The translations under genes and the position numbers were made by a program. A stretch of DNA of 64,000 bases, from assembly GCA_016927905.1 (NCBI GenBank), contig JAFGLW010000030.1:1-64000 (forward strand). The letters are read 5' to 3'. The notes under the pieces are model-generated. The model was given only the letters and a program-made list of their open reading frames with translations, had not been told where the DNA came from and did not search any database. This document shows positions 21,474 through 55,013 of the stretch, one piece after another (position 1 is the stretch's first letter; every line of letters begins with the position of its first letter). The DNA is from a candidate division CSSED10-310 bacterium. GTDB taxonomy: Bacteria > CSSED10-310 > JAFGJC01.

Positions 21474-21634
21474 GCAGATTATTGCTCCTTGGGTTGTCGA
21501 ACATACTGACCCGACCAGGCAACCTGCCGCCGGGCAGATCGAACCGGTCATTCAGGGATTGCCCCTCATCCACCGAAGAGAAAAGCTGCAAGAACAATGC
21601 CGAAATACCACTCGGATTGGATCAAACAATTGGA

Positions 21635-32408: not shown

Positions 32409-32427
32409 GAATCGCTCCTTTGCACTC

Positions 32428-35400: not shown

Positions 35401-35466
35401 GCCCAGACACAGTGCCGGTATGAAAACGGCAAGGAAAACGGTTCCGATCGCCAGTCTATTTCTCAT
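32428..35466 (-). CDS. Secreted M14 carboxypeptidase-like protein with P/T-rich linker and FWPSW domain, likely inactive
   Basis: Order: signal peptide, a short pro-region, an M14 zinc-carboxypeptidase fold (about residues 110-400), a regulatory-like beta domain (VIYGHVTDACTGQPISAYFF), a jelly-roll-type domain (CPYYEQTMDSDPGWEIDAYL to GFYVDDFKICG), a proline/threonine-rich linker and a C-terminal FWPSW domain (LDVYGVYFFWPSW). M14 residues compared: the zinc motif is LHQARE (usual HxRE/HHARE), the second zinc histidine SYHSFNE is kept, the substrate N-R pair is VNLAHN (usual DLNRN), and the catalytic glutamate region AIQVNAE has Gln. Several required residues are therefore missing. The ATG at 35466 follows GAGG by eight bases. 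Confidence 0.78.
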   Translation of the reverse strand: MRNRLAIGTVFLAVFIPALCLGSRTIIQLPLNDYLEVSSGMELRDRDHLDLIGLDHDRKTARIRISEQGLEILRMAGVYWTVENRSETGREDRIDSQYLDYSEVTSMLAGYESAHPSYMRRVDLATTFESRHIWAMKISDNVSVNEDEPSILFIGLHQAREIMATEITMDIVAYLANNYGSNPDVTDWVNTWQIWIIPMLNPDGSAYCWSTDQYWIKNRRDLGGGVYGVNLAHNYPFNWGACFGSSSDPNSNYFRGTTPASEPEIQAVISLAEEHRFAAILSYHSFNEFVLFPYGCQNDTAAEKDILRSFGSTFATAIRKENGSYGYPLGTWWELLYQTDGNETDYFYAEKGCLAYAIQVNAESYYPSYTVRNTTVERNRPGWQKVLNLFEDGNVIYGHVTDACTGQPISAYFFFSEYPPGLNESLKRNDPATGRYECIGKTGPLTLTFLAEGYVERNVPVSFSSSPIPMDVEMIPLTEPGLQIWASFVNDSATGDGDGNLDPGEQAILQVCLLAPSLPVTGISGVLSTSDPYITVIDNSATWPDLPGGGAAWSEGNSFSVSASSATPEGHVAILTITFDADQELCTNVDQLTLSVQTYVYLCPYYEQTMDSDPGWEIDAYLTNPGQPFPGPYNNWEFGIPVVGPSGAYTGSYVYGTGLDGNYDNGWTLTLTTPPIDCTDLSETSMFFARFLQVEYPYNYDYGRVRIRNEAGGSWTTIFSTGDSGWSNDSSWAYVEMDISSYADGEPSVEIRFDVRADSAFNEPGFYVDDFKICGNYYGSVPPPPTPTIRPTSTPSSIPSSTPIPSHTPTPPTNTPTPSATPTTAPGEPTNTPITPTHTPTLVPPSSTPTPTAPTPTPTLPGQPSNTPLPTRTPEVTFTPKPTETQPGMPTSTPTRPADYFAITLHLNDTYFEAGEDFLFQCEIERNGPTVTVEQYIILDVYGVYFFWPSWSETLDYENHSYPDGYHETTPIFDFIWPVVGGHASGLYFYAGCLAPGTTQLVGDISVVEFGY
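32783..33129 (-). repeat. Low-complexity DNA encoding a proline/threonine-rich linker
   Basis: About 115 codons of the M14-like gene are nearly all Pro, Thr and Ser in PTxTPT-type units. The plus strand here is a G/T-rich tract (gtgggtgtcggtg-like). It forms a flexible spacer between the folded domains and is prone to length variation. Confidence 0.85.
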
Positions 35467-35700
35467 TGATGAATCCTCATTCTCCAGATCGAAATTAGGA
35501 ATCCTCCCGGGCGAACATACGGGTTCACCCGCCACTGGATTCGGTTTTTGCAAAAACAGTGCCCAAATAGCAGGACCTTCGTTCCGGTTCCCTGGCCCTC
35601 AGGATGGACTACAAGGGTGTATTGATATGAGTCACCTGTCTTGTTACGGTCGATCTGGTGCCGGACCGGCTGGAAATGCAGGGTGTTCGGAACCCGGGGA

Positions 35701-37983: not shown

Positions 37984-38255
37984 TGCTTCTCTCCCAATCG
38001 GTCCAAAACTCTTCCGGGTCGAACACAACCCGTCTCTTCACGATTTATTCCAATTGCATGCCAAATCCCCTGATCGGGGAAAAATAGTCGCAAAAACGGG
38101 ATTTTACGATCCGATCCGTCCTGTTTCGAACCATGAATCGGCAGGATCGAGCGCCGTCCCCGGATCGGTGAAACAGCGGTATCCGGTGCGATGGGGTTGT
38201 GAGGTGATGGCATTACCTTTGCACAAGTTCCCGTCGGGGAGGGTGTACCGCAGGG

Positions 38256-40661
38256 ATGCAATTGGCCGTTTTCCCGGGAAATGGATTGTCGAATTCAGTC
38301 ATACCGCCTGTTCTGGTCGGTCTGGGATTGTCGACCGTTTTCACCGAGACACTGGGGTGGAATTTCAGCGGATTGATCGTACCGGGATATCTGGCACCCA
38401 TCTTCATCGTCAAACCTCTGAGCGGGGTGGTGATCATCATCGAGGCGTTTATTTCCTACGTCATTCTCCGCCTGCTTTCGGATGGATTCTCGCGATTCGG
38501 GATCTGGACCCGGTTTTTCGGACAGGACGCATTTTTTGCCTTGTTCTGCATCAGTATTCTTGTCAAATGCCTTCTGGAAGGCCCGTTTCTGCCGGTGATG
38601 GGGGATATCTTCGTTCAGATATTTCACAACTCGGTCGACTACCGGAACGAACTGCATTCCACCGGTTTGATCGTCGTGCCGCTCATGGCGAACATATTCT
38701 GGCGGCACGGCATCCGGCGAAATATCGTTCCCATCTCCACCGTCATCCTGCTCACTTATCTTTTTACGCGATTCGTCCTGATTCCCTACACCAATTTCTC
38801 GGTGAACCAGTTTGAACTGATGTACTCGAAGATGGCGCTGAATTTTGAAGCTAGCCCGATATTTTACTTCATTCTGATCATCGGCGCGTTCATGGCGTCA
38901 CACAACAAATATCGATTCGGCTGGTCGTATCATGGAATGCTGATTCCAGCGCTTCTGGGTATCGCATGGCTGACACCGCTGAAAATACTGACCACATTCA
39001 CTGAAGCCGGTTTGATACTTTTGATCGGTTGGTATCTGGTTCGAAGACGGTTCATGCAGAACATGACCGTTGAAGGTCCCCGGAAATTACTTTTTCTGTT
39101 CGGGATCGGATTTGCCCTGAAAATGGGACTCGGCTTTACGCTAGCCGATATGTACCCGGGATTTCAGGCAAGCGATCTTTACGGTTTCGCCTACATTCTT
39201 CCCGCCCTGCTGGCGATGGAAATGTGGCCGGGCAGGTATTACCTGAAGGTGGCCCGTGTGACCGTCCAGACGTCGTTTCTGGCGGCCGTGCTGGGCATGG
39301 CGACATGCCTTGCGTTCCAGGTTTTCCTGCCGCATACGTTCATTCAACAGTCGGATCAGCCGGTATCGGAGTTGTCGATTCAACCGGCGGATGCGGTTGT
39401 CCGGACGGAAGGGGGACTGGGATTATGGATCGCCGATACCGTGAAACCGGAATTGACCTGGGGTGCAGATCATCGACCGATCAAGGTAAGCCGTCTGTCC
39501 CAGTTCGACCGGCACGTCCTAACTCCGGTCGTCCGGGCCCTGGGGCGATCCGGCGAACTTCCCGTGACTTCCAAAATGGAACAGGTCCTGCACCAGTCCG
39601 GCTATTCAATAATCGATATGGAAAACGGCATGACCCGGGACAGATACTGGATATTTACGGAAACGGACCGCTCAGGCGGATACCATGGCACTTATATCTT
39701 CAGACAGGGCCGGGCATCCCCGCGGGTGATCCAGGTTCCCAATCCATTATCGGAAACCAATACCCTGGAGGTCGGTCTGGAATTGTTCCACGATCTGAAT
39801 GCCCGTGCACTGTTTATTTCCGGAACCAGCCGGCGGAAGCTGGTTGCGGAGTTCGATGTGACACATCTGGAATCGAGGATCAGCATGTTTCAACTGATGC
39901 ACCAGGTGATCCATCGGGAGATGGTTGAGACCGATCCGGTTCTCTCGATACAGATCAGGGGTGTGGCGGATCTGACAATCCCCGGGATCGATGCGGTGAT
40001 TAGTTCCGGAGAAGAAATTCGGGATCCTGCCGACCAGAAACCGGAACTGGTCGAACTGAAATCACAACTTGTCTCCCTGGGCATGACCGTCCGGGATTTC
40101 AGCGGGATTCCGGACGATATGCAATACAGTTCGCGGTCCATCGCCCAGCATGCCTATGTACGCGATTTCAATATGGGAGTATTCGCCGTTTTGTGGATTT
40201 CACCGGAATTCAGAAAAAACTACGAATCCCCCGAACTCAAACCGGAGATGACGGCGGCGCTGGGGTGGGTTTCCGGGGAAGGTGACCTGAGGGAGCGGAT
40301 TATGCGGGCGGAGCTGGCCGCCGATTCAGCTCCGACCGGTCTGTTGACGATTCGGGATGCCATCGGGCGGGAGCTGGCCGGGTATGCCCGCTCCGGGCAC
40401 ATCGGACATCTGTGGAATATCGCATCTCTGGCGGATGGCCAGGGTTACGCGATCGAGGTTTTTCTCGATTCGTCCCGGAATGTTCCGTTCCTTTGTCTGC
40501 AGCATCCCGAACCGGATCGACCCCTTTTTGTCTTCAATTTCAACATGCATTCTCCGGAACCGATCACGATCGAAATCCCGTCAGACTCCTCTGAAACCCG
40601 GTTGAATGAGTTCGTATTCAGCCGATCCGTATCCCTTACAGCGATAGGAGTAAGTTCATGA
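38256..40661 (+). CDS. Double PgsC/CapC membrane protein fused to an inactive hydrolase-like periplasmic domain
   Basis: Residues about 14-195 match the whole of B. subtilis PgsC (FTETLGWNFSGLIVPGYLAP and STGLIVVPLMANIFWRHG correspond to PgsC FTERTGILPAGLVVPGYLAL and GIGVIVPGLIANTIQRQG). Residues about 200-370 are a second CapC-like unit (SYHGMLIPALLGIAWLTPLK). PgsC is the membrane partner of the poly-gamma-glutamate synthase PgsB. From about residue 410 a periplasmic domain is homologous to the product of 43126-44091, but its likely catalytic H positions are N, R and V. It is the first gene of a six-gene operon, overlapping the next by ATGA. The only upstream ribosome-binding candidate is a GGGGAGG about 13 bases before the ATG. 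Confidence 0.82.
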   Translation: MQLAVFPGNGLSNSVIPPVLVGLGLSTVFTETLGWNFSGLIVPGYLAPIFIVKPLSGVVIIIEAFISYVILRLLSDGFSRFGIWTRFFGQDAFFALFCISILVKCLLEGPFLPVMGDIFVQIFHNSVDYRNELHSTGLIVVPLMANIFWRHGIRRNIVPISTVILLTYLFTRFVLIPYTNFSVNQFELMYSKMALNFEASPIFYFILIIGAFMASHNKYRFGWSYHGMLIPALLGIAWLTPLKILTTFTEAGLILLIGWYLVRRRFMQNMTVEGPRKLLFLFGIGFALKMGLGFTLADMYPGFQASDLYGFAYILPALLAMEMWPGRYYLKVARVTVQTSFLAAVLGMATCLAFQVFLPHTFIQQSDQPVSELSIQPADAVVRTEGGLGLWIADTVKPELTWGADHRPIKVSRLSQFDRHVLTPVVRALGRSGELPVTSKMEQVLHQSGYSIIDMENGMTRDRYWIFTETDRSGGYHGTYIFRQGRASPRVIQVPNPLSETNTLEVGLELFHDLNARALFISGTSRRKLVAEFDVTHLESRISMFQLMHQVIHREMVETDPVLSIQIRGVADLTIPGIDAVISSGEEIRDPADQKPELVELKSQLVSLGMTVRDFSGIPDDMQYSSRSIAQHAYVRDFNMGVFAVLWISPEFRKNYESPELKPEMTAALGWVSGEGDLRERIMRAELAADSAPTGLLTIRDAIGRELAGYARSGHIGHLWNIASLADGQGYAIEVFLDSSRNVPFLCLQHPEPDRPLFVFNFNMHSPEPITIEIPSDSSETRLNEFVFSRSVSLTAIGVSS

Positions 40662-43117
40662 TACATGGGAGACCGCTCAAACCCCTCCTTTATGGAATCA
40701 GCCTGATCATTCTTCTCTTGTTTACAACCTCCTGGATCATGACCTTCACTCCGGAAAAACCGAGTTATCTGGATATCGTGCTGTCCAAATCTCATCGGGT
40801 GCTGGCCTATGAAATCAACCGGCTCCGGCCGGCCGTGTTCAAGATACCCCCCCAGGCTGAATGTCTGGAGATCATCACCAATCTGGATATATACCGGTCT
40901 CTGGATCTGACCTGCATGGTTCAGTACGAGTATGGGCTGGAAGTGGAAATACGGGATTCGGCCGGTGAAATCCAGCGGAAGGAAATTTACTGGGAAAACA
41001 CCCGGCGCAGTCAATGGATGGACTCCCAGGATGACATTCCGATGGCGGCTGCTTTCTATATCAATAAACCCCAGATACCGGCGGATTCAAGAATGACCAC
41101 CATCCGTCTGAATCCCGGCCGTAATGATGATGTGTACGTTTCGGTGCGTCTGGTTTCGCCGGCTCAGGCAACGGCATCAGTCAGGATATACCGGCATGTG
41201 GATATGACTGAGGGGAACGAGCTGGGGAATGTCCGGCAGATTTCCAGAAATCTCAAATCCAAGATGGCGCTCCACAACCTGTACGGCAACCGGATCCGGG
41301 ATTTTGAAGTGCAGCGGTTTCTGCGTGACGTTCTGCGTCAGATTCCGGCGGAGGGTCGAAGCGGTATTGACTATATTACCCGGGACCTGTTTCTTTATGA
41401 CAGGGAAATACCGATTCTGGGTGAACCTCCGCCGGAGGATTCGCTGATATGCGGGCAGCATCCCATGTATTTTCCGCTCAGGGGTCCGGTCAATCTGAAG
41501 CTGACGTTCAGAGAAGGTGACACCGTTCGGATCACCGTTCATCACGAAGATGGAACGGAACGGGTGGAAGAGTTCCGTATCCGTCCCGGGTATATCTACC
41601 GGAAGGATTTTGACCGGGGTTTGTATCTGGTTGAATTGAAAACCCTGGGAATTGATGCGGCGATCCAATCCGTCGAAGTCGATCCGCCCGATAACCGGCT
41701 CGATATCCCTCAAAGATCTTCCACCGTCGGGCTGCCTTACCGGATGACAAATTATTACCGGATTCAACCGGCTGAACGGGGTGATCCGGTGCTCGTGCGG
41801 ATTCCCCGAAACGACGGGCACGGGAATCAGCCGCTCAAAATCGTCTGCCGGGTGCCGATGGACGATCCCGGTCCGGATACGTCAACACCATTCACTCTTT
41901 TCTACAGCTTCAAGAATGCAGACGGCGAAACCATAACGGAAAACCGGTATCAATCGGATGCGATCTCCACACCGTTTGCTCTTTATATGCAGGACGGAAC
42001 GATTCTTCCTCAGCGTCCCTCCTACCCCGACAGGCTTTTTCTCCACCCTCCGGAACATACCCATTCAATCCAGTTTCACTCCTCGATCGATGTCGATGTG
42101 TCCTTTTTCTGCAGGTTGACCGATCCTGAGATACATGTTGTTTATACAGGAGATGATTCGGAGGATCACTCCGGAGCGTTCCGGTTCATCGAAAAAGAAA
42201 CCAACCCCTCGGAATGGCACTATTTCAGACCGCATAACGCCGAACAGTTGGTGCAGGATTCGAGACGATATTCCGTTATGCTTCCCGGTGGAATACTGGA
42301 GCGGCGGATGGAGCAGGGTGAGACTCAACCGGGTGCGGTCGCCCGGACCTGTTTTCCGGTGGATCCTGCCGGAACCGGTCGGGTCATGGAAGCGGTCCGA
42401 TCCGAAATCTCGACCGGAACATCCTGCTACCGTGAAATTGAACCGGGAACCGACGGGGAGTTCGAAATAGGTGGTCCGGCGATGGGCGGGATGAACCTGG
42501 AAATCAGGTATTTCCTGTTCCGGCCGGAGAATCCTATGATCCGGGTGCAGGTCGATGGTGAGACCGGTTTGAATTTCAGACCGCTGACCGTCAACGGCAC
42601 TTTTACGCTTCCCCTTGTTACCAGAGGAATTCACCGGATCCAGATCGATTCATCATCCCGGGATGACCGGTTCTATCTCAAGATGGTTCCAGGTCTCAAA
42701 ATGAACGGTTCCGATCAGGCGTACCGAACCGTGTTCCGGCTGGACGGGAAGGAAAATCTGTTTGTTCCCATTGTCAAACCGGAGTGGTCCGCCTGCGGGA
42801 TGAACATCATGGTCTATGCGGAGGAAGGCATCGCGCTGCCCCTGTCCATCGATATCAAGGCGGAGAATTTAAGACGGATACCCGACGGGCGTTCATCGAA
42901 ACACCTGACGTCTTCATGCCGGCGATACGTCATCACCGAGCCGGACGGTTTCTCCCCGGTTTTCCTGACCGGAGAAATGCAGTTGGACCGGATCACCAGT
43001 CTGTATTTCCCTCTGCATGACGATATCCCTCCGGGCGAATACGCCCTGACCGTCAGCAGCGATTCGAATCGACCCGTTTTCGTGCGGTTTTTCATGCTTC
43101 AGCGCGAATCCGGTTGA
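40658..43117 (+). CDS. Large membrane-anchored periplasmic protein of the CapBC-like operon
   Basis: The 819-residue protein has one N-terminal helix (about residues 11-29, LYGISLIILLLFTTSWIM) acting as anchor or uncleaved signal; the rest is beta-rich and presumably periplasmic. I recognise no family. It contains modules of the form RGPVNLKLTFREGDT and GGPAMGGMNLEIRYFLFRP that resemble modules in the barrel protein at 44069 (KGPSILKLIVRP, TGPTVLRISIRP). These may be polymer-binding folds. The ATG overlaps the previous stop (ATGA) and follows AGGAG by seven bases, showing translational coupling to the CapC-like gene. Confidence 0.7.
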   Translation: MIHGRPLKPLLYGISLIILLLFTTSWIMTFTPEKPSYLDIVLSKSHRVLAYEINRLRPAVFKIPPQAECLEIITNLDIYRSLDLTCMVQYEYGLEVEIRDSAGEIQRKEIYWENTRRSQWMDSQDDIPMAAAFYINKPQIPADSRMTTIRLNPGRNDDVYVSVRLVSPAQATASVRIYRHVDMTEGNELGNVRQISRNLKSKMALHNLYGNRIRDFEVQRFLRDVLRQIPAEGRSGIDYITRDLFLYDREIPILGEPPPEDSLICGQHPMYFPLRGPVNLKLTFREGDTVRITVHHEDGTERVEEFRIRPGYIYRKDFDRGLYLVELKTLGIDAAIQSVEVDPPDNRLDIPQRSSTVGLPYRMTNYYRIQPAERGDPVLVRIPRNDGHGNQPLKIVCRVPMDDPGPDTSTPFTLFYSFKNADGETITENRYQSDAISTPFALYMQDGTILPQRPSYPDRLFLHPPEHTHSIQFHSSIDVDVSFFCRLTDPEIHVVYTGDDSEDHSGAFRFIEKETNPSEWHYFRPHNAEQLVQDSRRYSVMLPGGILERRMEQGETQPGAVARTCFPVDPAGTGRVMEAVRSEISTGTSCYREIEPGTDGEFEIGGPAMGGMNLEIRYFLFRPENPMIRVQVDGETGLNFRPLTVNGTFTLPLVTRGIHRIQIDSSSRDDRFYLKMVPGLKMNGSDQAYRTVFRLDGKENLFVPIVKPEWSACGMNIMVYAEEGIALPLSIDIKAENLRRIPDGRSSKHLTSSCRRYVITEPDGFSPVFLTGEMQLDRITSLYFPLHDDIPPGEYALTVSSDSNRPVFVRFFMLQRESG

Positions 43118-43125
43118 GTCGTATT

Positions 43126-44091
43126 ATGCAACGGACTGCGGCATATACTGCAATACTGGTTGTGGTTTTAACCACCTGGGCCGTTTCCTCCGCCAACCAT
43201 CGGCCGGAAACCTTGAAGGACCTCTATTATTCTGCGCGGGATCTGGAGGATCAAGATGCGTATCGAGAACCGACTGACCGGGAGTTGAAGGAATTTTCCG
43301 ATCTGATGGATCAGCTGCTTGTCTGCATCCGATCCGGACAAACCGGGCGGATTTCTCAACTGGTCCCGGTTGCGGACGGTCTCGGATTTCAGATCCGGCA
43401 GTCTGTCCGGGGTGCCGGTCGGGAATACACGGTAATCATGGAAAAGGGGAAATTGCGATTCGGCGGGGGATTCTATGCCGTCGCTGAAACCCCGCCGCCG
43501 GTGCGCCCTGCGCTTGTTCAAACACCCCATGCCCGTTCCGATGCATTTACGGGGCGTATCGGTATCCGGGTCGTCCTGAAGACTCGGAGTGCAGCATTCT
43601 TTTCGAGCACCATGCCTCGGGATCGGCTGATCAGCGGAGATCGGGACATCACGGAAATATCCGATCCAGCACACAATGCCAGATCCTTTTTTCAGTGTGC
43701 CACCGAAACTTTCGCCCGGCACAATCCGGATCTGCTGGTTATCCAGCTTCACGGATTCAGGAAAAACGATGAACGGAATTTTGATGCCATTCTTTCGAGC
43801 GGTCAGAGCATATCCAGGCATTCGGAACTGCAATCCCGAATCGCGGAATGCATCCGGGAAAATTTCCGAGACCGGACAATCGCGGTATTCGGCCGGGATA
43901 CCAATGAGCTGGGCGCGCTGACCAACATCCAGGGACGATACATCAACACCAAGACGTCCGGGCTGTTTCTCCATTTGGAAATGGACTGGGAATTCAGAAA
44001 GTCGATTGTGAAGGCCGAACCGATGATGAAACGGTTTACCCGTTGCGTGAATCGCATCATATCCATCTATGAAACGATGCCGGTTAGATAG
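43126..44091 (+). CDS. Putative periplasmic metal-dependent hydrolase (active paralogue of the CapC-fusion domain)
   Basis: A 321-residue secreted protein with a signal peptide (AAYTAILVVVLTTWAVSSA). Conserved polar motifs look catalytic: QTPHARSD, VIQLHGF and LHLEMDWEFRK. The arrangement of scattered His/Glu recalls zinc amidohydrolases such as N-formylglutamate amidohydrolase or the phage poly-gamma-glutamate hydrolase, but I cannot assign a family. Block-by-block similarity to the C-terminal domain of the protein at 38256 is clear, including FDAILSSGQSI versus IDAVISSGEEI. In this operon it could trim or release the polymer. Start is ATG 43126; a TTG at 43114 overlapping the upstream stop is an alternative. 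Confidence 0.65.
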   Translation: MQRTAAYTAILVVVLTTWAVSSANHRPETLKDLYYSARDLEDQDAYREPTDRELKEFSDLMDQLLVCIRSGQTGRISQLVPVADGLGFQIRQSVRGAGREYTVIMEKGKLRFGGGFYAVAETPPPVRPALVQTPHARSDAFTGRIGIRVVLKTRSAAFFSSTMPRDRLISGDRDITEISDPAHNARSFFQCATETFARHNPDLLVIQLHGFRKNDERNFDAILSSGQSISRHSELQSRIAECIRENFRDRTIAVFGRDTNELGALTNIQGRYINTKTSGLFLHLEMDWEFRKSIVKAEPMMKRFTRCVNRIISIYETMPVR

Positions 44092-47000
44092 GAATTGCGG
44101 ATTTGCACCGCTGATTTGGGCGGGTGTCCTGCTCCTGGTCATTCCATGCCAGCTGCACGGATCCAGGATCGAATCACCGTCTCATCACCGCTGGTTTCCG
44201 TTGGTTCTCCCGGATCATGCCGGGAACACCGTCATCCTGTCGGAAGGGGCTGAAGTCGAGGCTGAAATTCCGGGATCATCCGCAATTCTGATCCGGAGCC
44301 GGGATCTGACGACTTACCTGGAGGTTTTTTCGGTCTACTGCATGGGCACATCCGACGATTATGCAAAAACCCTCGTTCCCGCCCGATTGATCCGTGTCGA
44401 CGATCATACTGTGGTCATCCCGACCGGCCCGGGACGTGGTTATACATTTCTGATCCGTGCCGTGGATCGACCCGCTCGGCTGTCTCTGTACCGGCAGGTA
44501 AGGTATTCACGGGATACTTACTGGCGGGATTTCACCGCCGGGATTCTGAGGGAGATTGACGTCGCCGATCTTGAAGGCGGCGCAGCCAGTCATGCGGTCC
44601 TGACGCACCAGCTGCAGCAGTTGCGACAGGATGCGGTCGAAACCGTACCGGTATTTGCCGATTTTGAGCCCTTGCTGCGCCGGATTTGTCATGAAATCCT
44701 GCTGTCACGGAGACTGCTTGCGCGTGAAGATTCCCTGACCCGGTCGCTGGAATTGGATGGGGAGTCCGGAGGGCGGGGTGATCCGGCCGGAGATTTGATC
44801 CGGACCGGAACGGACCTGAAAGTGAAAGGACCCTCGATACTGAAACTGATTGTCCGGCCGGGGGGATCGGTATCGAATGCGGTACGCAACCGTGACGAAG
44901 TGCTCGGTATATTCATCGACGGCATGATTCTTCCGGAACTGCGGATCACGGCCGGATCGGCACCCGGCAGCAGCCGGTGGCTCCGGAACACGATTCCGGC
45001 GCGGTTGGCGGTTAGCGACCGGCAGTCGGGAGAACGGGAGATCGATACGGCTGACATGCCGGTCACCGAGATATATTACATCCCGATCGGCGACCATACC
45101 ATCCGGCTGGATCCTGACGCACCTGTCCGGATTCAAGCTGAGATCAGCCGGTTGGAACATCTCCGGACCGAATGGATATCCGAAACCGCTCCCCTGACTC
45201 CGGATGCACTGCATCCGCTGCCGTATGAAAACACGGTTTTGGATCTGGTCACCTTCGGAATTCATCGATTGCCCCGGAAACTGAAAACCAGCCTGATATG
45301 GCTGGAGAGACAATCGATGGTTGATTCCGATGATCCGGTTATCAATGCTTTTTACCGGAGTCAACGCAGAAAACTCGAGTGGCGTGGAATTGAAGCATCC
45401 GGAGACCGGGGTTATTTTCTGGATCCACCGTCTGTATTGTCCACGCTCAAACCGGCACGGTCGGAACCGCATGCCGTCCCCGGATTCTGCGTCATACACC
45501 CCGGGCAAACGGTTTCGCTGGAAATCGAGATTATAGATGAATGTCCTTATTTCCCGGTTCCGATTTATGATCTTGATTCCGGACCCGGGGATTTGCCACT
45601 GGTTATTGATGTGGATGGAAGAAAACGCATTCTGGAACGGATCCCCGGAATTCCGGATCCCGCCGCCGACTTGTTTCTCACACCGGGTGTTCACACCCTC
45701 CGTATCCACGAAGGAAACCGTGATCTTTATATCGATCATCCGGCAGCGGATGCGGAATCGGTTCCGGGTTATATCCGGGAATATCTTTACGTTGACAAAA
45801 CGGTTCATTTCGCCTGTAACGGCGGTGATTTCGGTCAGACGGTCCGCATCTTGTATCGTCCCCGGCACGGGATTGACGGCGAAATACCTTTGGAATGGCG
45901 GTTTTCGGGTTCGGAACCGGTTCGAGTGATCTGCCGTCCCGCTGGCAAATCCGGATTCGAAATGGCGGGATTTTACATGGATGTGCCTCCCGGTCTCTCC
46001 GAAGTGATTGTCCGGTCGGGGGAAGCCGGTTGGTTCCATATTTCCTGTTCCGACTTCCCGGATGTCTCCATCGAGCCGTTCGATATCCGGAAGGTGGAAA
46101 CAGAACAGATCAGCCGGTTTTTCGAATCCCCACCGGATGTTCCCGATCTTTGCGCGGGTTTGGTTTCCGGGAGGACGAAGGGAATCGACAGGGTTCTGGG
46201 GCTGGCATACCAGGGCGATATCCGGAATGCTGTTTCAGCATATCTGGCTCTGGGAATGGAGCCCGGTTCGATTGCGGCCGATCTGCTCGAGTGTTACCTG
46301 TTGAGCCGGACGGGGCACTATTACGATGTCCTTGAAAAAGGTGAGCGGATATCCAACCGGACGGGGTATTGCGAACGATGGTTTTTGATCGCCATGTCAC
46401 AGGCGGCAATAAGGACCGGAAAACCACTGGACGTTCTGAATTGGACGGATCGGGTGTTATCCCGCTATCCGGATGATCCCCAGGCTGGAATACTCCGGGC
46501 CCGCACCCTGGCGCATCTTGGGGATTTCAACGGAGTGGCGGATTTGATTGCTCCGATGCTTGAAAGAACAGATGTCGGTATCGAGGAACGGTTCTGGATG
46601 GATTATCTGCGTCGGATCGATCCGGCGGGAACCGGTTTGGGGGAAGATTGGGCGGTTTTGAGTCCATCGCCGCAATTTGAGGCGATCGATATCGAGCGGT
46701 TCAATCCGGATGCCGGATGGATTTCGATGATAGATGAATTGAAATTGGATCGTGAATCCGGCGTCGATCCGGAATCCGGTGTAAACCGCATGGTAATGCG
46801 ATCCGGAGATGAGATGTATTTTGAAATGACGGGTCCTACGGTTCTGCGGATATCGATCCGGCCCGATCATCCGTTAGACGGCGCATCCGGGCCTGCCCCG
46901 TTCGTGTTTCAGTACCGGGATGGGTCGTTGAATACCCGGATTTGTTTCCAGGACAACAAACCGGATCGGGACGGAGTATCCTACCGGGGGGATACCCATG

Positions 47001-49156
47001 TTCGACCGGGTACCGCTGAAACCGTTGATATACCGATCCCCGAAGGAACCCGCCGGATCGAAATCTGCGGCGTCTCCGGTTCGGCGACTCTGCGATTCTT
47101 CAGACAGGTTCCGGGAATCGATGATCTGCCCGGATCCGGGGAGGGGGGAATGACCGGTGAACAGGTCCGGGGGATCATCCGGGATTTGTATGCTTCGGAT
47201 TCCGGGTCCGTTAAAATGCTTGCTGCCGCCGCCCGGATCGAAGCTCTGCGGAAGGCGCACCCGGAAAGCGGTCTTTTGAAACGGATGCATGAAGATCTGA
47301 GGCACCGGTACCAATGGCGTATCCTTCCCTCGATCGACACCGGTGCTCAAACCGTTACCCTGGTACCGGGCCGGATGTCGCACCATCCTCTGGTTCAGGT
47401 GCGGGGGTGTTTGATCGAAGACCCCGTCAAGGGTATTCCGGCGGAGCTGATCGTACCCGGAACATCAATCCGGTACCGACTGCCGGCGGGGATCAACCGG
47501 TTCCGGATTTACCGGGCCAATCCGGCCGAATGCTCAAACGGAATCCGGTTGATGGTGTTTTACCAAAACAGGCTGATCGGCGAGATGAAACCGCAGGACC
47601 GTATGATTGAAATCGAACAATCAGCACCCTTTTCGGATCTCCTGTCCGTATCGACGGCAAGCGGCTGCTATGCGGAACCCATGAAGGTAACCGTTATGTC
47701 TGTAGATGAATCAGGGAATGAGGATCCCGTACCGGTCATGTCAAGGGAAACCTATTGTGAAAGCTCAATCGGACATCCCGCCATGACCGGGATTTTTGGC
47801 CCCGGCCTGTTGAGATTGACCTGCCGGGAATTGTCCCGGAGAATTCCGGCGGATCCTGTTGAAATAATGGTTCAGGTTGCTTCGAACAGCCAGCCCGAGG
47901 CATGGCATGAAACTGTTTTCATGCAGTCGGTATGGGATGAAACGATCAAACTGGAAACGGGCGGAGATTTCGTCGGTGAAGCTCTGGAAATGACCATCCC
48001 TCTGATGAATCAGGATTATTACACGGTGACGGTGCATCCCGTGCGAAAGCAGACATCCACAGTGCTTGTCCGGTTTGCCGGAGCGGTTCCATCGGTTGAC
48101 CCGTCCCGGGTGGAACTCGCGCCCGGGTCGGTTGCATTAACCGGACAACCCGGAAAGATCCCGCTGTTTGGGGAAGATGCAAAAACATCTGAACCGTTCC
48201 AGGTCTGGTCATCGAAGGTGCCGGACGGATTACCGTTACGTGGTCAGGATGGCGGAACCTGGACATTCGACGGAGTTTACCGGCACCGTGAGGAGGCGGG
48301 GGATTCGAATGATTTATGGGAACCCTACAGTTCATCGGGTCTGACCGCGGAATTCGGGTATCAGCGGCGTTTCGAAGGCAGAGGTTTGTATCTGGATGCG
48401 GGTGCGGGAGCCGCCAGCCCGAACGAGAATGACAGAGATTCCGTTCAATGGATTCGTCAGCGGTTGGATGCGGTAACCGATCTATGGGATCTCAGGGGCA
48501 GTCTGACTGCCCGGGGATATCTGGGTGAGGTCCGTGCGGAATCTGAATATTCGATTTACGTTACCGGTGATTTCCGGCGCACGTTTCGGCCCGGGATCAA
48601 ATGGTATGTGATACCCGCTGCAGGTTTTCATTACCGGCACATGAGTCTGGATGCGGGGGAACTGGACGGATACGAAGAGGCTGCGGATCCGCGCCTGTTC
48701 AATGATTTTGACTGTCGGCACCGCTCAGGAGCTTCATTTGAGAGCACCGTCCGATTCGATCCCTTGAAAAGCCTGATGATGTTTGCGCAGTTCCAGACGA
48801 TGACCGCCGGTGACGGGGATTCAGGGCTGTTCGGGCCGTGGTGGTTTGAAACGGGAATCAAGGGAGTAACCGGGCCGGTTCTCTGGTCTGCCGAGTATTC
48901 GCATCGCAGCAGTTTCGGTTCGTCGGTCGAACCGGAGCGAAGCCGGTTGACAGGGAAGATCTCTGTTTTCAGGTGGGCGGCCGGACGGTGGTATGGTGAA
49001 TTGGGTATTTCCGACCGGTATACCCTCGAGACACGATGGAATGATTTCAGGGTGAGTCTGGGTATCCGGTTTTCATCGGGCAGACTTTTACGTGATATGA
49101 ATCCCTACCGTTTGGTGTTCAAACCGGAAATTGAGAAGAGAGCTTTCGACTTGTGA
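44069..49156 (+). CDS. Giant secreted protein with TPR-like section and C-terminal outer-membrane barrel
   Basis: Signal peptide (PLIWAGVLLLVIPCQLHG), then beta-rich modules with repeated signatures KGPSILKLIVRP (about residue 250) and TGPTVLRISIRP (about residue 925). A helical TPR-like section covers about residues 690-845 (GLAYQGDIRNAVSAYLALG, ARTLAHLGDFNGVADLI). From about residue 1420 to 1695, alternating amphipathic strands with aromatic girdles form an outer-membrane barrel (LTAEFGYQRRF, RWYGELGISDRYTLE, FRVSLGIRF). Helical periplasmic repeats plus a barrel is the layout of PgaA, BcsC and PelB, which export polysaccharides, so I infer a polymer exit channel. It overlaps the preceding gene by 23 bases. 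Confidence 0.75.
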   Translation: MKRCRLDRNCGFAPLIWAGVLLLVIPCQLHGSRIESPSHHRWFPLVLPDHAGNTVILSEGAEVEAEIPGSSAILIRSRDLTTYLEVFSVYCMGTSDDYAKTLVPARLIRVDDHTVVIPTGPGRGYTFLIRAVDRPARLSLYRQVRYSRDTYWRDFTAGILREIDVADLEGGAASHAVLTHQLQQLRQDAVETVPVFADFEPLLRRICHEILLSRRLLAREDSLTRSLELDGESGGRGDPAGDLIRTGTDLKVKGPSILKLIVRPGGSVSNAVRNRDEVLGIFIDGMILPELRITAGSAPGSSRWLRNTIPARLAVSDRQSGEREIDTADMPVTEIYYIPIGDHTIRLDPDAPVRIQAEISRLEHLRTEWISETAPLTPDALHPLPYENTVLDLVTFGIHRLPRKLKTSLIWLERQSMVDSDDPVINAFYRSQRRKLEWRGIEASGDRGYFLDPPSVLSTLKPARSEPHAVPGFCVIHPGQTVSLEIEIIDECPYFPVPIYDLDSGPGDLPLVIDVDGRKRILERIPGIPDPAADLFLTPGVHTLRIHEGNRDLYIDHPAADAESVPGYIREYLYVDKTVHFACNGGDFGQTVRILYRPRHGIDGEIPLEWRFSGSEPVRVICRPAGKSGFEMAGFYMDVPPGLSEVIVRSGEAGWFHISCSDFPDVSIEPFDIRKVETEQISRFFESPPDVPDLCAGLVSGRTKGIDRVLGLAYQGDIRNAVSAYLALGMEPGSIAADLLECYLLSRTGHYYDVLEKGERISNRTGYCERWFLIAMSQAAIRTGKPLDVLNWTDRVLSRYPDDPQAGILRARTLAHLGDFNGVADLIAPMLERTDVGIEERFWMDYLRRIDPAGTGLGEDWAVLSPSPQFEAIDIERFNPDAGWISMIDELKLDRESGVDPESGVNRMVMRSGDEMYFEMTGPTVLRISIRPDHPLDGASGPAPFVFQYRDGSLNTRICFQDNKPDRDGVSYRGDTHVRPGTAETVDIPIPEGTRRIEICGVSGSATLRFFRQVPGIDDLPGSGEGGMTGEQVRGIIRDLYASDSGSVKMLAAAARIEALRKAHPESGLLKRMHEDLRHRYQWRILPSIDTGAQTVTLVPGRMSHHPLVQVRGCLIEDPVKGIPAELIVPGTSIRYRLPAGINRFRIYRANPAECSNGIRLMVFYQNRLIGEMKPQDRMIEIEQSAPFSDLLSVSTASGCYAEPMKVTVMSVDESGNEDPVPVMSRETYCESSIGHPAMTGIFGPGLLRLTCRELSRRIPADPVEIMVQVASNSQPEAWHETVFMQSVWDETIKLETGGDFVGEALEMTIPLMNQDYYTVTVHPVRKQTSTVLVRFAGAVPSVDPSRVELAPGSVALTGQPGKIPLFGEDAKTSEPFQVWSSKVPDGLPLRGQDGGTWTFDGVYRHREEAGDSNDLWEPYSSSGLTAEFGYQRRFEGRGLYLDAGAGAASPNENDRDSVQWIRQRLDAVTDLWDLRGSLTARGYLGEVRAESEYSIYVTGDFRRTFRPGIKWYVIPAAGFHYRHMSLDAGELDGYEEAADPRLFNDFDCRHRSGASFESTVRFDPLKSLMMFAQFQTMTAGDGDSGLFGPWWFETGIKGVTGPVLWSAEYSHRSSFGSSVEPERSRLTGKISVFRWAAGRWYGELGISDRYTLETRWNDFRVSLGIRFSSGRLLRDMNPYRLVFKPEIEKRAFDL

Positions 49157-51252
49157 ACGCCCCGAACAACACCACGATACTCCCCGATTTGATGCAGCTG
49201 GCTCAGATCTCCCTGAGTTCACTGGATCGGCACGCAGCCTTTTCGGTTGTTCGGTCGATCGGGGCAGGAACGAGCGGGCTGGAGGGAACGGTTCCGGAAC
49301 GTCTGGTGTCACTTCTGAAAAGAAAAGCAGAATTCCGCAGAAAGGTTGTGACCGATTACAGGTGCATGGAATCGGATCTGAGTTCCATGAACGACAGAAA
49401 TGAAAAGATCGATCGGATGATGGCATTCATTCGAACGATTTCCCCGGAAAATTCCTTGAAGGAGGACCGGAAAGCGTTCAACCGGTGGATGGATGCGGCC
49501 GCAGTCCGGGAACGGGCCCGGATCAGGCTGCACGAGAGTGAGCGTTTTCTGGAAATCGTCATCCGGCTGCTGACCGGTGATGCCGTGGTGAATCTGAAGT
49601 CGGCCGGTGATGCATCCGCTCGTTACCGTGTTCGGGATCATCTGAACCTGCCGGACCTGTTCTGGGTTGAATTCGATGAAACGCCCCGCTGGCAGAACAG
49701 GCTGGCAGTGATGCAATACTGGATTGGATGTGCCGGGTGCCTGCCTGTACCGGATCGAAGCCGGTTTCTGCCATTGCCGTGGAAAGACCTGGTTGTGCAG
49801 ATTCTGGAGAATCCCGGAGCGAATCTGTGGGTTCGCGTGGCGGCGTTTCGTATGGGAATGCTGTATTTTCCGGAGGAATGCTTCAAACATGTCGTGCACA
49901 AATTGAATGATGAAACAGGAACGGAAGACGATTTTTATGTCCGTGCCGGAATACTGGATGTCATAGCTGAAATCGGTACCCGGAGTCAGTTGGGCGCGTG
50001 CATCGATATTGTGTTGAAACGGCCTGACAGCAGCGAACATGTCAAGATCCGGGCAGTCCGCCTCCTGGCGGCGTTGAAGCATGATCAAATTCTGAAGGCA
50101 GTTGGTCCCGTTCTGTCCGAACCGGGTGTTCCGGGATTTAACTGGCGGGTTAAACTGGCTGCCGTGATATCTCTGGGAACATTCGTCTCCCGTCTGACCG
50201 AACCGGGTGGCGACGAAACTGATGTCGGCGACCTGATGCAGATTTTGTTTCACCAAATGCATCACGGCAGCCACGTGAACGTCCAGCTGGGTGCACTGGA
50301 AGCCATATCCGGAATTGCAGACGCCCATCTGCACCGGCATGAGGGTGCGGTGATCGACGGTTTTTTGTTTGAAATCCTGCAAAACATCGACCGCCTGATA
50401 ACAGACAGAACAATCGCGGGCCGACTTCGGCGCGATGCCTCCGTACTGCGGGAACTGATTCTGCTCCGTTCCCATTCCCGAGCCTGCCGGTTATTGAGCC
50501 GGATCCGGGAAATGGCCGGCAGTGTGCCGGAGGGGACATCGTTTCATGTCCCGGCAGAAAACGGGCTGGACGCTGTCACTCTGGGAAGGATTCTGGCGGC
50601 ACTCAGCAGCGATGATTTCGGGTATTACGCCAGAGGTGTTCGCGCCGGTTATGAAATCACACGGGGAGATTCCTATCGTAAGCGGTTCTGGCGTATCTGG
50701 GATGAAATTCGCCGTCCCGATCCATCGAAGCGGCAGGGATTTCCACATTCGATCGGGCGGATGTACCGGGGAACGATTCGAGCGCATTCAAGGTTGCTTG
50801 CCGAAACGACGGAGACCAAGGTGGCGGGTGAACGAGTGGTTGTGCCCGGGGAAGCTTCCTGGCGGCCCTATCTTCCAACCGTGGATGATTTGCTGTCCCT
50901 GACATCCCGGAAGCTGGCGGGCAGACCGGTCAGATTGTTCAGCGCGGAGGGGATCGTCACCATGACCGGACCTGGTAATCTGCTGGATCGAATCACGACA
51001 TGGCTGAGGATAACGTTCTCCTACCGGGAGCTGGCCCGTCGCCGCAACCTGGAAATCCGGCAGCTGGATTCAAACATGGAACGCGGCCTGACGCAGGTGG
51101 CGATGGAAGACCTGGGAATCGACATTACGTTCACACCGCATGCCTTTCGCTATGATGAAAGCGAATATGCGGTCACCGACCCGACGGTATCAAGAAACTT
51201 GTACCCCGCGACGAAAAAGACGGATCCGGATGGGGACCGGGGAAATGACTGA
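49153..51252 (+). CDS. HEAT-repeat-like cytoplasmic protein of the CapBC-like operon
   Basis: The 699-residue protein has no signal peptide. Residues about 50-140 are a helical, possibly coiled-coil section. Residues about 215-420 contain HEAT-like helical hairpins (LWVRVAAFRMGMLYF, VRAGILDVIAEIG, VKIRAVRLLAALKH, WRVKLAAVISLGTF, VNVQLGALEAISGIAD). The C-terminal third is unfamiliar. Its position between the barrel gene and the CapB-like gene, with GTGA overlap at the start and an 8-base overlap at the end, suggests it scaffolds or regulates the synthase on the cytoplasmic side. Confidence 0.68.
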   Translation: MNAPNNTTILPDLMQLAQISLSSLDRHAAFSVVRSIGAGTSGLEGTVPERLVSLLKRKAEFRRKVVTDYRCMESDLSSMNDRNEKIDRMMAFIRTISPENSLKEDRKAFNRWMDAAAVRERARIRLHESERFLEIVIRLLTGDAVVNLKSAGDASARYRVRDHLNLPDLFWVEFDETPRWQNRLAVMQYWIGCAGCLPVPDRSRFLPLPWKDLVVQILENPGANLWVRVAAFRMGMLYFPEECFKHVVHKLNDETGTEDDFYVRAGILDVIAEIGTRSQLGACIDIVLKRPDSSEHVKIRAVRLLAALKHDQILKAVGPVLSEPGVPGFNWRVKLAAVISLGTFVSRLTEPGGDETDVGDLMQILFHQMHHGSHVNVQLGALEAISGIADAHLHRHEGAVIDGFLFEILQNIDRLITDRTIAGRLRRDASVLRELILLRSHSRACRLLSRIREMAGSVPEGTSFHVPAENGLDAVTLGRILAALSSDDFGYYARGVRAGYEITRGDSYRKRFWRIWDEIRRPDPSKRQGFPHSIGRMYRGTIRAHSRLLAETTETKVAGERVVVPGEASWRPYLPTVDDLLSLTSRKLAGRPVRLFSAEGIVTMTGPGNLLDRITTWLRITFSYRELARRRNLEIRQLDSNMERGLTQVAMEDLGIDITFTPHAFRYDESEYAVTDPTVSRNLYPATKKTDPDGDRGND

Positions 51253-53443
51253 TCATCTATCCGATGCGGTTAACTGGGTTGTGCACAGCCTGATGGTGCT
51301 TCCAATGCCCGGAATCGACCATCTGGTGTGGTTCACATCGGTTGCATTGGGATTGTTTCTGGTCCGGCTGATGGTGCGTCGGTATCGCATCCGGATGTCG
51401 AGATCGGCGCTTCCCCTCGTTATCGGGGGCTGGGGAACCCGGGGGAAATCCGGTACCGAAAGAAAAAAAACCGCGCTGTTTCAAGCCCTGGGATACAATG
51501 TCGTCAGTAAAACAACGGGATGCGAAGCAACCATATTATTGTCCAGACCGGGGCTGGATGCCGTGGAAATCCCCATTTACCGTCCGGGAGAGAAAGCGTC
51601 CATCTGGGAACAGGAAAAGATTTTACAATGGGCGGCCGGATTAAAAGCGGAGGTTTTTCTGTGGGAATGCATGGCTCTGGGAAGCGATTACGCAGCTCTG
51701 ATGCAGCATTCGTGGATGAACGATGACTGGTCTACCATTACCAACACATTCGTAGATCACGAGAATGTTCAGGGTCCGACGGGGATTGATGTTTCGCGGT
51801 CCATCGCGGCATTCATACCCATGAATTCGAAAGTGTACACGGCGGAGGAAAACATGCTTCCGGTTCTGAAGGATCATGCCCGGAAACTCAATTCAAGCCT
51901 GATACCGCTGAAATGGTCGGATGCGGAATTGATCGGGTCCGATGCGATCAACCTGTTTCCTTACAATGTTCATCCGAGGAATCTGGGTATGATTCTGAAT
52001 ATGGCCAGGGATCATGGTATCGATGCGGATTTCGCTTTGCGGGAAACCGCCCGGAATATCGTTCCGGATCTCGGTTCATTCAAGAAGTATTCGGTCCGGT
52101 TTCAAACGAGGGAAATCGAATACTGGAACGGAATGTCGGCAAACGATCGGACCAGCTGCCTGAGCAACTGGAATCTTGCCGGGTTTTCGATGGTTCCCAA
52201 TGACGGGCGGACATGGATCGTTACCGTTGTGAATAATCGGGACGATCGGATCATCCGGTCCAGGGAGTTTGCCGAAACCCTTGTCAATTATACACCGGCC
52301 AACCTGCATGTTTTGATCGGAACAAATCTGAACGGATTTTACGGGTATCTCCAGGACGCACTGGAACACTTTGCCCGCCAGTTTTTTCTGAGTCGTGATG
52401 TGATCGCTCAACTGCCGGTGGACAGGATTCGGGACCGTTTTAACAGATTTACTCACCGGACGCTGGAATGGTTCCGGGTGGACGGGACCTCCCCGGAAGC
52501 GATACAGCTGAAATTGAACAGAATGCTTGAAGCGGTCAATGCGGAGTATTCTGCCGATGGATTGCCGGCCCGGTTGCCCGATACGGGATTTGATTGCCTG
52601 AAAGCAGCCGAAGATTATCTGCTTGAAGCGGGGTTGAAAAATGATCTGATGCGGGCGGATATGGCCCGGCAGCTGTTTAAAGACATGCAGGATCTGCAGC
52701 GGATTAAATCATGGGAGAACGATTACGGGAAACTGCTGGAAAAACCGGCACTGTCGTTTGCAGATGTCCGCAGATTGAACAGCCGTCTGACCGAGTTCAT
52801 AAAGGGATTGTTCAACAGTGGGCTGATGGTCATCCGGGACCCGATCGTTCCGGGAGATGACATCATCTGGCAGCTTGTCCGGAGAACTCCCCCCGGGCAT
52901 ATCCTGAAGATAATGGGTCTTCAAAACATCAAAGGTACAGGTATGGGATTCGCTTACCGCTGGGTATCCCTGGAAAAAGTCATGAGAGCGATCCGGAATC
53001 TGGCCGATTCGCGTCTGGATACGCGAATCGCTGCCGCCAGCGAGCTGGCGACGCACGATGCCTATGGAATGCTGGACATTCCCGTGGCTCTGGAAGCCTT
53101 GAAACAGGCCCGGATGAATCCCGACAACGATACTCCTGAAATGCTCGCACCGATCGAGGAGGCGTTGCGGAAACTGACGCAGTTGTCGTCGGAGCAGGCG
53201 GATCCGCGGAGATCCCGGATGGGCCGGATCGGCAAAGCCGGTCTGCGTTTTTTCGAGCAGTTGTTGGAGCTGGGGGATTCCAAACGCCGCCAGAGAACAT
53301 CCCGGCAGGTCATGCAGGATCTGGTGAACGGGAGGATTGCCGCGGCCCGGGCGGCCCAGGTGATCCACGGATTGAACAAACGCCAGGAGGGCGGCTGGCT
53401 GCTGAGCAGGCGGGTCAAACCGCCGGTTGATCCGGAGACATGA
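51245..53443 (+). CDS. PgsB/CapB-like ATP-dependent poly-amino-acid ligase with C-terminal extension
   Basis: One N-terminal helix (about residues 28-43) precedes a Mur-ligase-type domain matching B. subtilis PgsB: P-loop GTRGKSGT (residues 64-71), NVVSKTTG, ECMALGSDY (PgsB ECMAVNPDY), VDHENVQGPT (LEDHMDVMGPT), ANDRTSCLSNWN (ANDASSTLNIWK) and NNRDDRIIRSREFA (NCRADRVDRTQQFA). PgsB activates glutamate as acyl-phosphate and forms gamma-amide bonds. About 300 helical residues beyond the usual ~400 have no PgsB counterpart. The ATG at 51245 overlaps the upstream stop by eight bases; an earlier in-frame ATG at 51140 would lie deep inside the previous gene. Confidence 0.88.
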   Translation: MTDHLSDAVNWVVHSLMVLPMPGIDHLVWFTSVALGLFLVRLMVRRYRIRMSRSALPLVIGGWGTRGKSGTERKKTALFQALGYNVVSKTTGCEATILLSRPGLDAVEIPIYRPGEKASIWEQEKILQWAAGLKAEVFLWECMALGSDYAALMQHSWMNDDWSTITNTFVDHENVQGPTGIDVSRSIAAFIPMNSKVYTAEENMLPVLKDHARKLNSSLIPLKWSDAELIGSDAINLFPYNVHPRNLGMILNMARDHGIDADFALRETARNIVPDLGSFKKYSVRFQTREIEYWNGMSANDRTSCLSNWNLAGFSMVPNDGRTWIVTVVNNRDDRIIRSREFAETLVNYTPANLHVLIGTNLNGFYGYLQDALEHFARQFFLSRDVIAQLPVDRIRDRFNRFTHRTLEWFRVDGTSPEAIQLKLNRMLEAVNAEYSADGLPARLPDTGFDCLKAAEDYLLEAGLKNDLMRADMARQLFKDMQDLQRIKSWENDYGKLLEKPALSFADVRRLNSRLTEFIKGLFNSGLMVIRDPIVPGDDIIWQLVRRTPPGHILKIMGLQNIKGTGMGFAYRWVSLEKVMRAIRNLADSRLDTRIAAASELATHDAYGMLDIPVALEALKQARMNPDNDTPEMLAPIEEALRKLTQLSSEQADPRRSRMGRIGKAGLRFFEQLLELGDSKRRQRTSRQVMQDLVNGRIAAARAAQVIHGLNKRQEGGWLLSRRVKPPVDPET

Positions 53444-54907
53444 TCATTCCGGTTCGTCCGGGATCAGAGCCGGACCGGAACGGGCCACGGTGTTCCAGAG
53501 ATGCAAAGCCACCCATTGATACTCCTCGGCGCTGGGATGATGATCAAAAGGATGCACCTGCGACGGCACGCCTTTCGGCAGATCGGGTACCTGCAGCACC
53601 TGGATGCCGCTGGATTCAAGGCGACTCACGAAAAATTCAAAGGCATCCCGCCGCATGGTATGCCGCGGCCATATGACGACATAAAAATTTCCGTCAAACA
53701 TGACATCATAACTCTTTTTCGACTCCAGAATCAACTTCAACGTTACCTTGACCGCATCCAATTCTTTCACGGTATGGAATCGATAATGATTCCAGACGAG
53801 ATATCGGGCGGTTGGTGACGATCGCACAACGGCGTTGTATATATTCGACAGATAATAAAGGGACTTTTTTTCGTAGTACCTGAACGGCACGCCCAGCGAA
53901 CCGTCGGGATTCAGCCGGAAAAGCGGAAATTCCCGTGCCGTCGTACTCATGTGGTAGTAACTTCCCACATTCCGATACAGATGATCGGGAATGAAGGAGT
54001 ATACAGCGATTCCGGAAGTTTGCCGGATATCGGAGAAATATCCGGGATTTTTCAGGACATAGTACATCTGGGCGGTACCCCATCCGCCGAGTCCGTAGTT
54101 GTAGGCTGCATACTGGTTTCCTGAAATCAGTTGAAAGGATGAAGGCAGATTTTTCCCGCATGGAATTGCGTGACCGAACGTGAACGATCCACCGAAAAAC
54201 AATGCATGACGCTCCGCTTCCGAAGGCCGCCATCCGCACCATCTTCTACGTTTCCAGTCGATCTGATAGAAAACGTTCCGGGCCATATATTCCCGGCGTT
54301 TCCCGATTTCCCAGTAATACGACTCGGTGGTTTCGAGACCGGGAATGGCCTTGTATCCAAGTCTCAAATCAGTCTCGTACATGAATCGTTCCGTTTGAAA
54401 TTTCAATCGTGTGCAGGCACATCCGGTTTTTTCGTGGACGGCAAACCCGATTTCCACAGCCAACCCAAACAGCACAAATATGAGCAGGCTCAATTTGTAT
54501 CCGCGAAGCCTGGTCAACAGCGAAGCGGTCAGGCCCAGGACCATCAGAAAAAGCATGGCGATATGCAGATTGATGGTGTCGTCACTGAAAGCGGGGATGA
54601 TGAGCAGCAGGGCCAGAGCGATCATCAGAACCACCAGGCGCTCCGTCAACCAGCGGGATACTTTTCGGCACAGTGTAACCGGGGGCAGGAGAACCAGGAG
54701 GATTCCGATGGAGAGAACGGAGTAATCGGTGACGAGAATGGGGGTTACCATCTGGTCGAATACGGGTTTCGTATTTTTAAAAAACCAGATATAAGTCCAT
54801 TCGTTGAAGCAGATCACGAACATCAGGCAGAGGTACCCGAATAGTTTCTGATGATCGATGTTCAATGTTCGAGTGGAATTCCCGGGACGGATCCGGATAA
54901 CGATCAT
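53444..54907 (-). CDS. Multi-pass membrane protein with C-terminal SGNH-like domain
   Basis: The first half has about five membrane helices. The second half resembles an SGNH hydrolase: block I is FFGGSFTFGHAI (usual GDSxxxG), a glycine/asparagine block is YNYGLGGWGTAQ, and the C-terminal block is FDHHPSAEEY with the DxxH arrangement. Similar proteins occur beside polymer loci and may be acyl esterases or transferases. Its stop abuts the stop of the convergent CapB-like gene with no gap. The ATG at 54907 is chosen over a TTG four codons upstream. Confidence 0.65.
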   Translation of the reverse strand: MIVIRIRPGNSTRTLNIDHQKLFGYLCLMFVICFNEWTYIWFFKNTKPVFDQMVTPILVTDYSVLSIGILLVLLPPVTLCRKVSRWLTERLVVLMIALALLLIIPAFSDDTINLHIAMLFLMVLGLTASLLTRLRGYKLSLLIFVLFGLAVEIGFAVHEKTGCACTRLKFQTERFMYETDLRLGYKAIPGLETTESYYWEIGKRREYMARNVFYQIDWKRRRWCGWRPSEAERHALFFGGSFTFGHAIPCGKNLPSSFQLISGNQYAAYNYGLGGWGTAQMYYVLKNPGYFSDIRQTSGIAVYSFIPDHLYRNVGSYYHMSTTAREFPLFRLNPDGSLGVPFRYYEKKSLYYLSNIYNAVVRSSPTARYLVWNHYRFHTVKELDAVKVTLKLILESKKSYDVMFDGNFYVVIWPRHTMRRDAFEFFVSRLESSGIQVLQVPDLPKGVPSQVHPFDHHPSAEEYQWVALHLWNTVARSGPALIPDEPE

Positions 54908-55013
54908 GGTCTTTCTCAATGTTGAAACCTGGTTGGATCGAACCTGAAAAGCGACGGTTGACAGAATATCCGGATCGGCCGGTTAACACAACTCTTAAGC
55001 TGGGGGAGATTCC

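Follow-up and report, generated by a model that had tools for sequence, protein, structure and literature searches.

A six-gene CapB-CapC operon of a CSSED10-310 bacterium encoding a doubled CapC fused to a pseudo-hydrolase domain: a candidate machine for synthesis and export of a poly-gamma-glutamate-like polymer

The route by which polyglutamate-type chains cross two membranes, and the role that CapC plays, are to our knowledge open questions. Poly-gamma-glutamate capsule systems have been defined by two mandatory components, CapB and CapC, with CapA and CapE as accessory components; CapB-CapC pairs are known from most phyla, and CapA is inessential to the definition (PMC5542703). In Francisella, whose cluster is named capBCA, 'capA' has been listed among the poly-gamma-glutamate system proteins (PMC5362203). 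Both mandatory components, a CapB ligase and a CapC membrane protein, are present at the locus described here. The locus resembles the Bacillus PgsBCA(E)/CapBCA(E) systems in that CapB and CapC are encoded together and a depolymerase-type enzyme is associated with them. It differs from them in that CapC occurs twice within one protein, together with an inactive hydrolase domain, CapA is missing from the locus, periplasmic and outer-membrane proteins are added, and CapC comes first in the gene order and CapB last.

The window, a stretch of 64,000 nucleotides, belongs to a 3.1 Mb assembly that is 86.5% complete and is placed in the GTDB phylum CSSED10-310, a rare phylum (PMC8248873). Six long plus-strand open reading frames fill positions 38256 to 53443 (Table 1), with overlaps of 4, 4, 23, 4 and 8 bases, the last of which presupposes a CapB start at 51245. 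That start, taken from the preliminary description, is supported by the orthologue in G004 (a genome of the same order), which begins there, so that the longer frame from 51140 is unneeded. The neighbouring genes on both sides (35701-38028 and 53444-54919) lie on the minus strand, and the limits of the operon are therefore natural. No promoter-like site was found on the plus strand upstream of the operon in a promoter and terminator scan. The overlapping or nearly touching arrangement of six genes that had been described from the sequence is real, and the absence of CapA from the operon was likewise borne out: PF09587 had no match in any of the six genes, and a single PF09587 frame occurs elsewhere in the genome (C22).

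Table 1. Positions of the operon genes and their domains in the window.
Feature	Length or residues	Position	Strand	Description
Gene 1, CapC2	801 aa	38256-40661	+	two tandem PgsC/CapC membrane domains and a C-terminal non-membrane domain
CapC domains of CapC2		38316-38720, 38880-39227	+	PF14102 in two stretches
Pseudo-hydrolase domain of CapC2	residues 384-665	39405-40250	+	homologous to gene 3, catalytic residues replaced
Gene 2	819 aa	40658-43117	+	large extracytoplasmic part behind a single N-terminal membrane helix
Gene 3	325 aa	43114-44091	+	predicted secreted zinc hydrolase; conserved H139, D143, H187, H213, E289
Gene 4	1695 aa	44069-49156	+	exported; repeated extracytoplasmic modules, C-terminal outer-membrane barrel
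Gene 4 barrel	residues 1397-1669	48257-49075	+	predicted 14-strand antiparallel beta-barrel
Gene 5	699 aa	49153-51252	+	cytoplasmic, HEAT-like; in one frame with CapB in G325
Gene 6, PgsB/CapB amide ligase	732 aa	51245-53443	+	TIGR04012; N-terminal membrane helix, long C-terminal extension

The CapB product matches TIGR04012 with an E-value of 2.8e-62 over model positions 5-331 of 380. Its score of 210.7 bits is slightly under the equivalog cut-off of 222.7 bits, which the G004 orthologue exceeds (229.1). The P-loop GTRGKS, the DHE motif and the other ligase motifs are intact, and the C-terminal extension reaches past the end of the model. With these motifs and the profile match, the earlier assignment as a PgsB/CapB-like ligase holds, and the match to the PgsB profile over the whole domain makes a Mur-ligase fold very likely. 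Compared with 16 ordinary CapBs, the protein has the usual residue in only 49 of their 86 near-invariant columns and departs from them directly behind the P-loop. The product of gene 5, which had been called HEAT-like, is similar to PF13646 (2.6e-4) at 21.7 bits, under the cut-off of 27.7 bits; the likeness was retained, and membership of the HEAT family itself, unconfirmed by Pfam, was rejected on this sub-threshold match. In G325, a genome from another phylum, a single frame of 1157 aa at locus L029 matches both the gene 5 profile (3.8e-49) and the CapB profile (9.7e-121), and this fusion is good evidence that the two proteins work together.

Judged from its sequence, gene 1 does not encode a plain PgsC/CapC protein but a CapC-CapC-pseudohydrolase fusion, hereafter called CapC2. 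A Pfam profile search found PF14102 in two domains with 125.8 bits (cut-off 27), followed by some 430 residues outside the membrane; against TIGR04011 the protein scores 61.7 bits, under the equivalog cut-off of 96.45. The C-terminal part is found by the gene 3 profile at 2.9e-9 among 577 ORFs (hmmsearch), the reverse search works too, and the profile-profile comparison with gene 3 (hhalign) gives a probability of 99.5% and an E-value of 1.1e-22. In the alignment, with gene 3 numbering, P-H139 is replaced by P-N, D143 by E, H213 by R and E289 by W. The CapC2 versions of G325, G195 and G592, which are about 1055 aa long, contain the pseudo-hydrolase domain twice, with the first copy partial or diverged. 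The preliminary description had named gene 1 PgsC/CapC-like, correctly as far as PF14102 goes, and had missed the tandem CapC, the fused inactive domain and the homology of the latter to gene 3.

The five residues listed for gene 3 in Table 1 are kept in all seven of the relatives that were aligned. The structure model of the protein (pLDDT 83) has the fold of a carboxypeptidase/FGase-like zinc hydrolase. Its Foldseek matches in the PDB were metallo-carboxypeptidases, succinylglutamate desuccinylase, amidases and, from the N-formylglutamate amidohydrolase (FGase) family, the protein Atu2144, at E-values of 8e-6 to 1e-2 and at low TM-scores of 0.3-0.5. Among viral models it matched 'Poly-gamma-glutamate hydrolase [Bacillus phage Bobb]' with an E-value of 7e-5; taken over PDB and viral hits, TM-scores were no more than about 0.35-0.5. 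No PF05908 or peptidase-family Pfam match was found for gene 3, and PF05908 had no match in any of the seven relatives. Membership in PF05908, FGase or M14 by sequence was rejected, also after comparison of the family alignment with PDB sequences. Gene 3 is thus alike to PghP (PF05908) and to the N-formylglutamate amidohydrolase/M14 fold in its predicted fold and in a metal-site-like pattern of His, Asp and Glu, and differs from PghP in having no PF05908 match, in being secreted and in being encoded alongside the synthase. The product is predicted to be a zinc hydrolase of glutamate-amide-like bonds; its fold comes from the model, and we infer its metal and substrate. The secreted hydrolase-like protein proposed earlier accords with this fold model and with the invariant H, D, H, H and E. 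The gene 3 family is a wider one that is mostly found without CapBC. Relatives in several genomes (L081-L090) have T9SS sorting tails, a prolyl-oligopeptidase propeller or fn3 domains, and their hydrolase part is without a Pfam name.

Gene 2 has no family match among the Pfam and TIGR profiles, and its extracytoplasmic part is probably beta-rich. It shares 31% identity with its L010 counterpart. As a relative of TIGR04332 it was rejected, hhalign giving a probability of 0.1% between the X370/TIGR04332 profile and gene 2; a TIGR04332 match was absent from all six proteins of the operon. Gene 4 begins with a hydrophobic segment and shares 25% identity over its full length with its L010 counterpart. 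The model of its C-terminal barrel, with 14 long strands and moderate confidence (pLDDT 68), has OmpG structures as its best PDB matches (E 3.6e-10, TMt 0.72), and the C-terminus is predicted to be an OmpG-like outer-membrane barrel. The preliminary description had proposed TPRs together with a barrel; structure prediction and the OmpG matches favour the barrel, and the TPRs were discarded, since no Pfam TPR or barrel family was found in gene 4 or in its L010 and L029 counterparts. By general description, gene 4 resembles the PgaA/BcsC-type exporters of exopolysaccharides in having a large periplasmic part and a terminal outer-membrane barrel and in being encoded with a synthase. It differs in having a Pfam match neither to TPR nor to their barrels, its own barrel being predicted as OmpG-like with 14 strands.

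About 32 CapC loci fetched from other genomes served for comparison. A bitopic TIGR04332 protein follows CapC in most of them (22 ORF matches), and 13 ORFs at ordinary CapBC loci form one barrel-like protein family, one member of which matches PF13505. An outer-membrane protein beside CapBC is thus common in diderms, a barrel protein following CapC in ordinary clusters too, and the outer-membrane part is not unique to the operon in the window, contrary to what had first been supposed from the contrast with Bacillus. The diderm CapB-CapC-TIGR04332 clusters share with it CapB, CapC, a bitopic protein, a secreted beta-rich protein and often an outer-membrane barrel; they have a single CapC and separate small proteins, whereas the operon here has a doubled CapC, the giant gene 4 and no TIGR04332 protein. 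Genes 3 and 5 were not found adjoining the sampled clusters of this type. In G065, the secreted protein L047_4 is encoded between the TIGR04332 protein and the barrel, and the gene 4 modules outside the cytoplasm show a weak match to it (3.3e-6). It is as though one giant protein here stood in place of the separate small ones there.

Recurrence of the gene order in other genomes had been set beforehand as a test of the preliminary description, which it withstood: the order recurs in other genera and in another phylum. In G001, from a sister genus of the same family, genes 1-5 lie in order up to the end of the contig, and in G004 gene 1, genes 3-4 and genes 5-6 are found on separate contigs. 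All six positions are in order in G325, with 5 and 6 fused. At the G195 locus, in a third phylum, gene 1, a gene 2-like ORF and gene 3 are present, and the contig breaks off within one more ORF, of which it contains the start; G592, which belongs to the same phylum as G325, carries genes 1, 2 and 3, and foreign genes have been inserted there. The CapC2 fusion is limited to six genomes among about 690 searched for gene 3 and 386 searched for CapC. Omp85 homologues are present in the genome of the window and in every other carrier (six of six), and the carriers are therefore diderm, with an outer membrane. No plasmid copies were found in 72,556 records, and a broad scan of named genomes with CapC2 peptides, which are too specific for wider use, returned only two known MAGs of the phylum. 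Gene 2 of the window is weakly homologous to that of G592 (blastp 2.1e-7). At the distant loci of G325 and G195, genes 2 and 4 agree with their window counterparts in position and size; homology of gene 4 between phyla found no support in the comparison.

In the CapC tree, some long branches of which meet so that its deeper order is unsure, the halves of the six CapC2 proteins fall into two groups, one of first halves and one of second halves. The doubling is therefore older than the spread of these lineages. A tandem CapC of 328 aa without a hydrolase domain was also seen in G111 (L033 7479-8465, minus strand), where it adjoins an ordinary CapB. A common origin with CapC2 was rejected, as the CapB there is ordinary and both halves are placed with single CapCs in the tree; this doubling seems to have arisen separately, though the long branches leave us unsure of it.

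The reading that we favour, and hold to be fairly probable, is that the six genes specify a synthase and exporter, spanning the envelope, for a poly-gamma-glutamate-like polymer. It is built on computed features of the locus, namely the protein families, the order of domains, the pair of an enzyme and its dead copy, the barrel and the conserved gene order; the identity of the polymer, the direction of transport and the division of labour are our interpretation. At the cytoplasmic membrane, CapB would activate an amino acid and join it to the chain, with the HEAT-like product of gene 5 holding CapB in place or regulating it. The doubled CapC would act with CapB as the membrane component and hand the growing chain outwards, and the inactive carboxypeptidase-like domain of CapC2 would hold on to the chain on the periplasmic side but leave it uncut. 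The periplasm would be bridged by gene 2 together with the periplasmic portion of gene 4, the gene 4 barrel would provide the exit through the outer membrane, and the secreted gene 3 enzyme would trim, release or clear the polymer. Against this reading count a CapB that is divergent in its equivalog score and in its near-invariant columns, the agreement of genes 2 and 4 with the G325 and G195 loci chiefly in position and size, with weak homology for gene 2, the membership of gene 3 in a hydrolase family that mostly occurs without CapBC, and the moderate confidence of the barrel model.

Insofar as CapB falls below its equivalog cut-off and is altered right after the P-loop, CapC2 falls below that of TIGR04011, and gene 3 lies outside PF05908 by sequence, the same machine might make another product, either a different amino-acid chain with gamma or beta linkages or a short oligo-amino-acid on a surface molecule. 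We regard this as rather doubtful, because CapB and CapC still match the poly-gamma-glutamate models best and the fold of gene 3 resembles the phage poly-gamma-glutamate hydrolase and other glutamate-amide hydrolases. The polymer might instead be kept at the inner membrane or in the periplasm in an osmotic or stress role, with the gene 4 barrel as a porin-like uptake device or anchor and gene 3 recycling the polymer as food. The presence of a hydrolase within the operon, the likeness of the barrel to the general porin OmpG and the failure to find a known export motif would suit such a role; it is nevertheless unlikely, as the barrel terminates an exported protein of 1695 aa that is co-encoded with the synthase, and barrels recur beside CapBC in other diderms. 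A system that has nothing to do with capsules and employs CapB and CapC anew to modify peptides or carriers could be imagined from the occurrence of the wider gene 3 family in proteins without CapBC and from the long, separate branches of the first and second CapC halves, but seems highly improbable where both mandatory poly-gamma-glutamate components (PMC5542703) stand together and the ligase motifs are intact.

We tentatively raise the possibility that the synthase and exporter proposed above represents a separate class of diderm amino-acid polymer secretion machine. Its transporter would be a single CapC-CapC-pseudoenzyme protein that uses an inactivated depolymerase as a clamp to hold the chain; it would be paired with the active paralogue and with a giant exporter dedicated to it in the outer membrane, and the polymer might be something other than polyglutamate. 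Three things are new here: a CapC-CapC-pseudohydrolase fusion encoded in one operon with its active paralogue, the pairing of a HEAT-like protein with CapB, and an outer-membrane component made as one large protein; no paper on this gene set was found in the open-access literature. With a doubled CapC fused to a domain of chain-cutting type and a co-encoded barrel, the operon offers a compact set of parts for probing the role of CapC and the crossing of two membranes, and the pair of active and inactive hydrolases predicts binding of the chain in the periplasm. The variety of CapBC systems from lineage to lineage exceeds what the Bacillus model suggests.

Several observations were made on the genes around the operon. 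A CHASE2 sensor protein (L030 7947-10649, minus strand) is encoded directly upstream of CapC2 in G195, and the end of a histidine-kinase-like ATPase (L029 14260-14985, minus strand) in G325; the operon may be under sensor control in these two genomes. The divergent neighbours in the window (28465-38028, minus strand) encode a CarboxypepD_reg repeat protein, an M14 carboxypeptidase and a C25 gingipain-like peptidase. A CarboxypepD_reg protein, an M14 carboxypeptidase and a C25 peptidase likewise adjoin CapC2 in G004 (L011 2035-9703), the first two with 52% identity. The window contains two C25 (gingipain-type) peptidases (18747-21551 and 29823-32519, both on the minus strand), which are 41% identical to each other and both contain a lamin-tail-like domain. 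The divergent neighbours also carry a C-terminal domain of about 125 aa (35704-36111, 32431-32811 and 28468-28824, all on the minus strand; alignment A8) with the pattern ILDVYG.FFWPSW ... F.WP ... GL.FY ... FGY-end, for which there is no Pfam name. This domain occurs in 104 copies in the genome of the window and in 90 and 83 copies in two related genomes, and in none of three CapC2 carriers from other phyla. In 20 of 20 further cases it ends at most 24 residues from the stop codon, and in 19 of these at most 6 residues from it. It looks like a candidate phylum-specific domain for protein sorting or anchoring.
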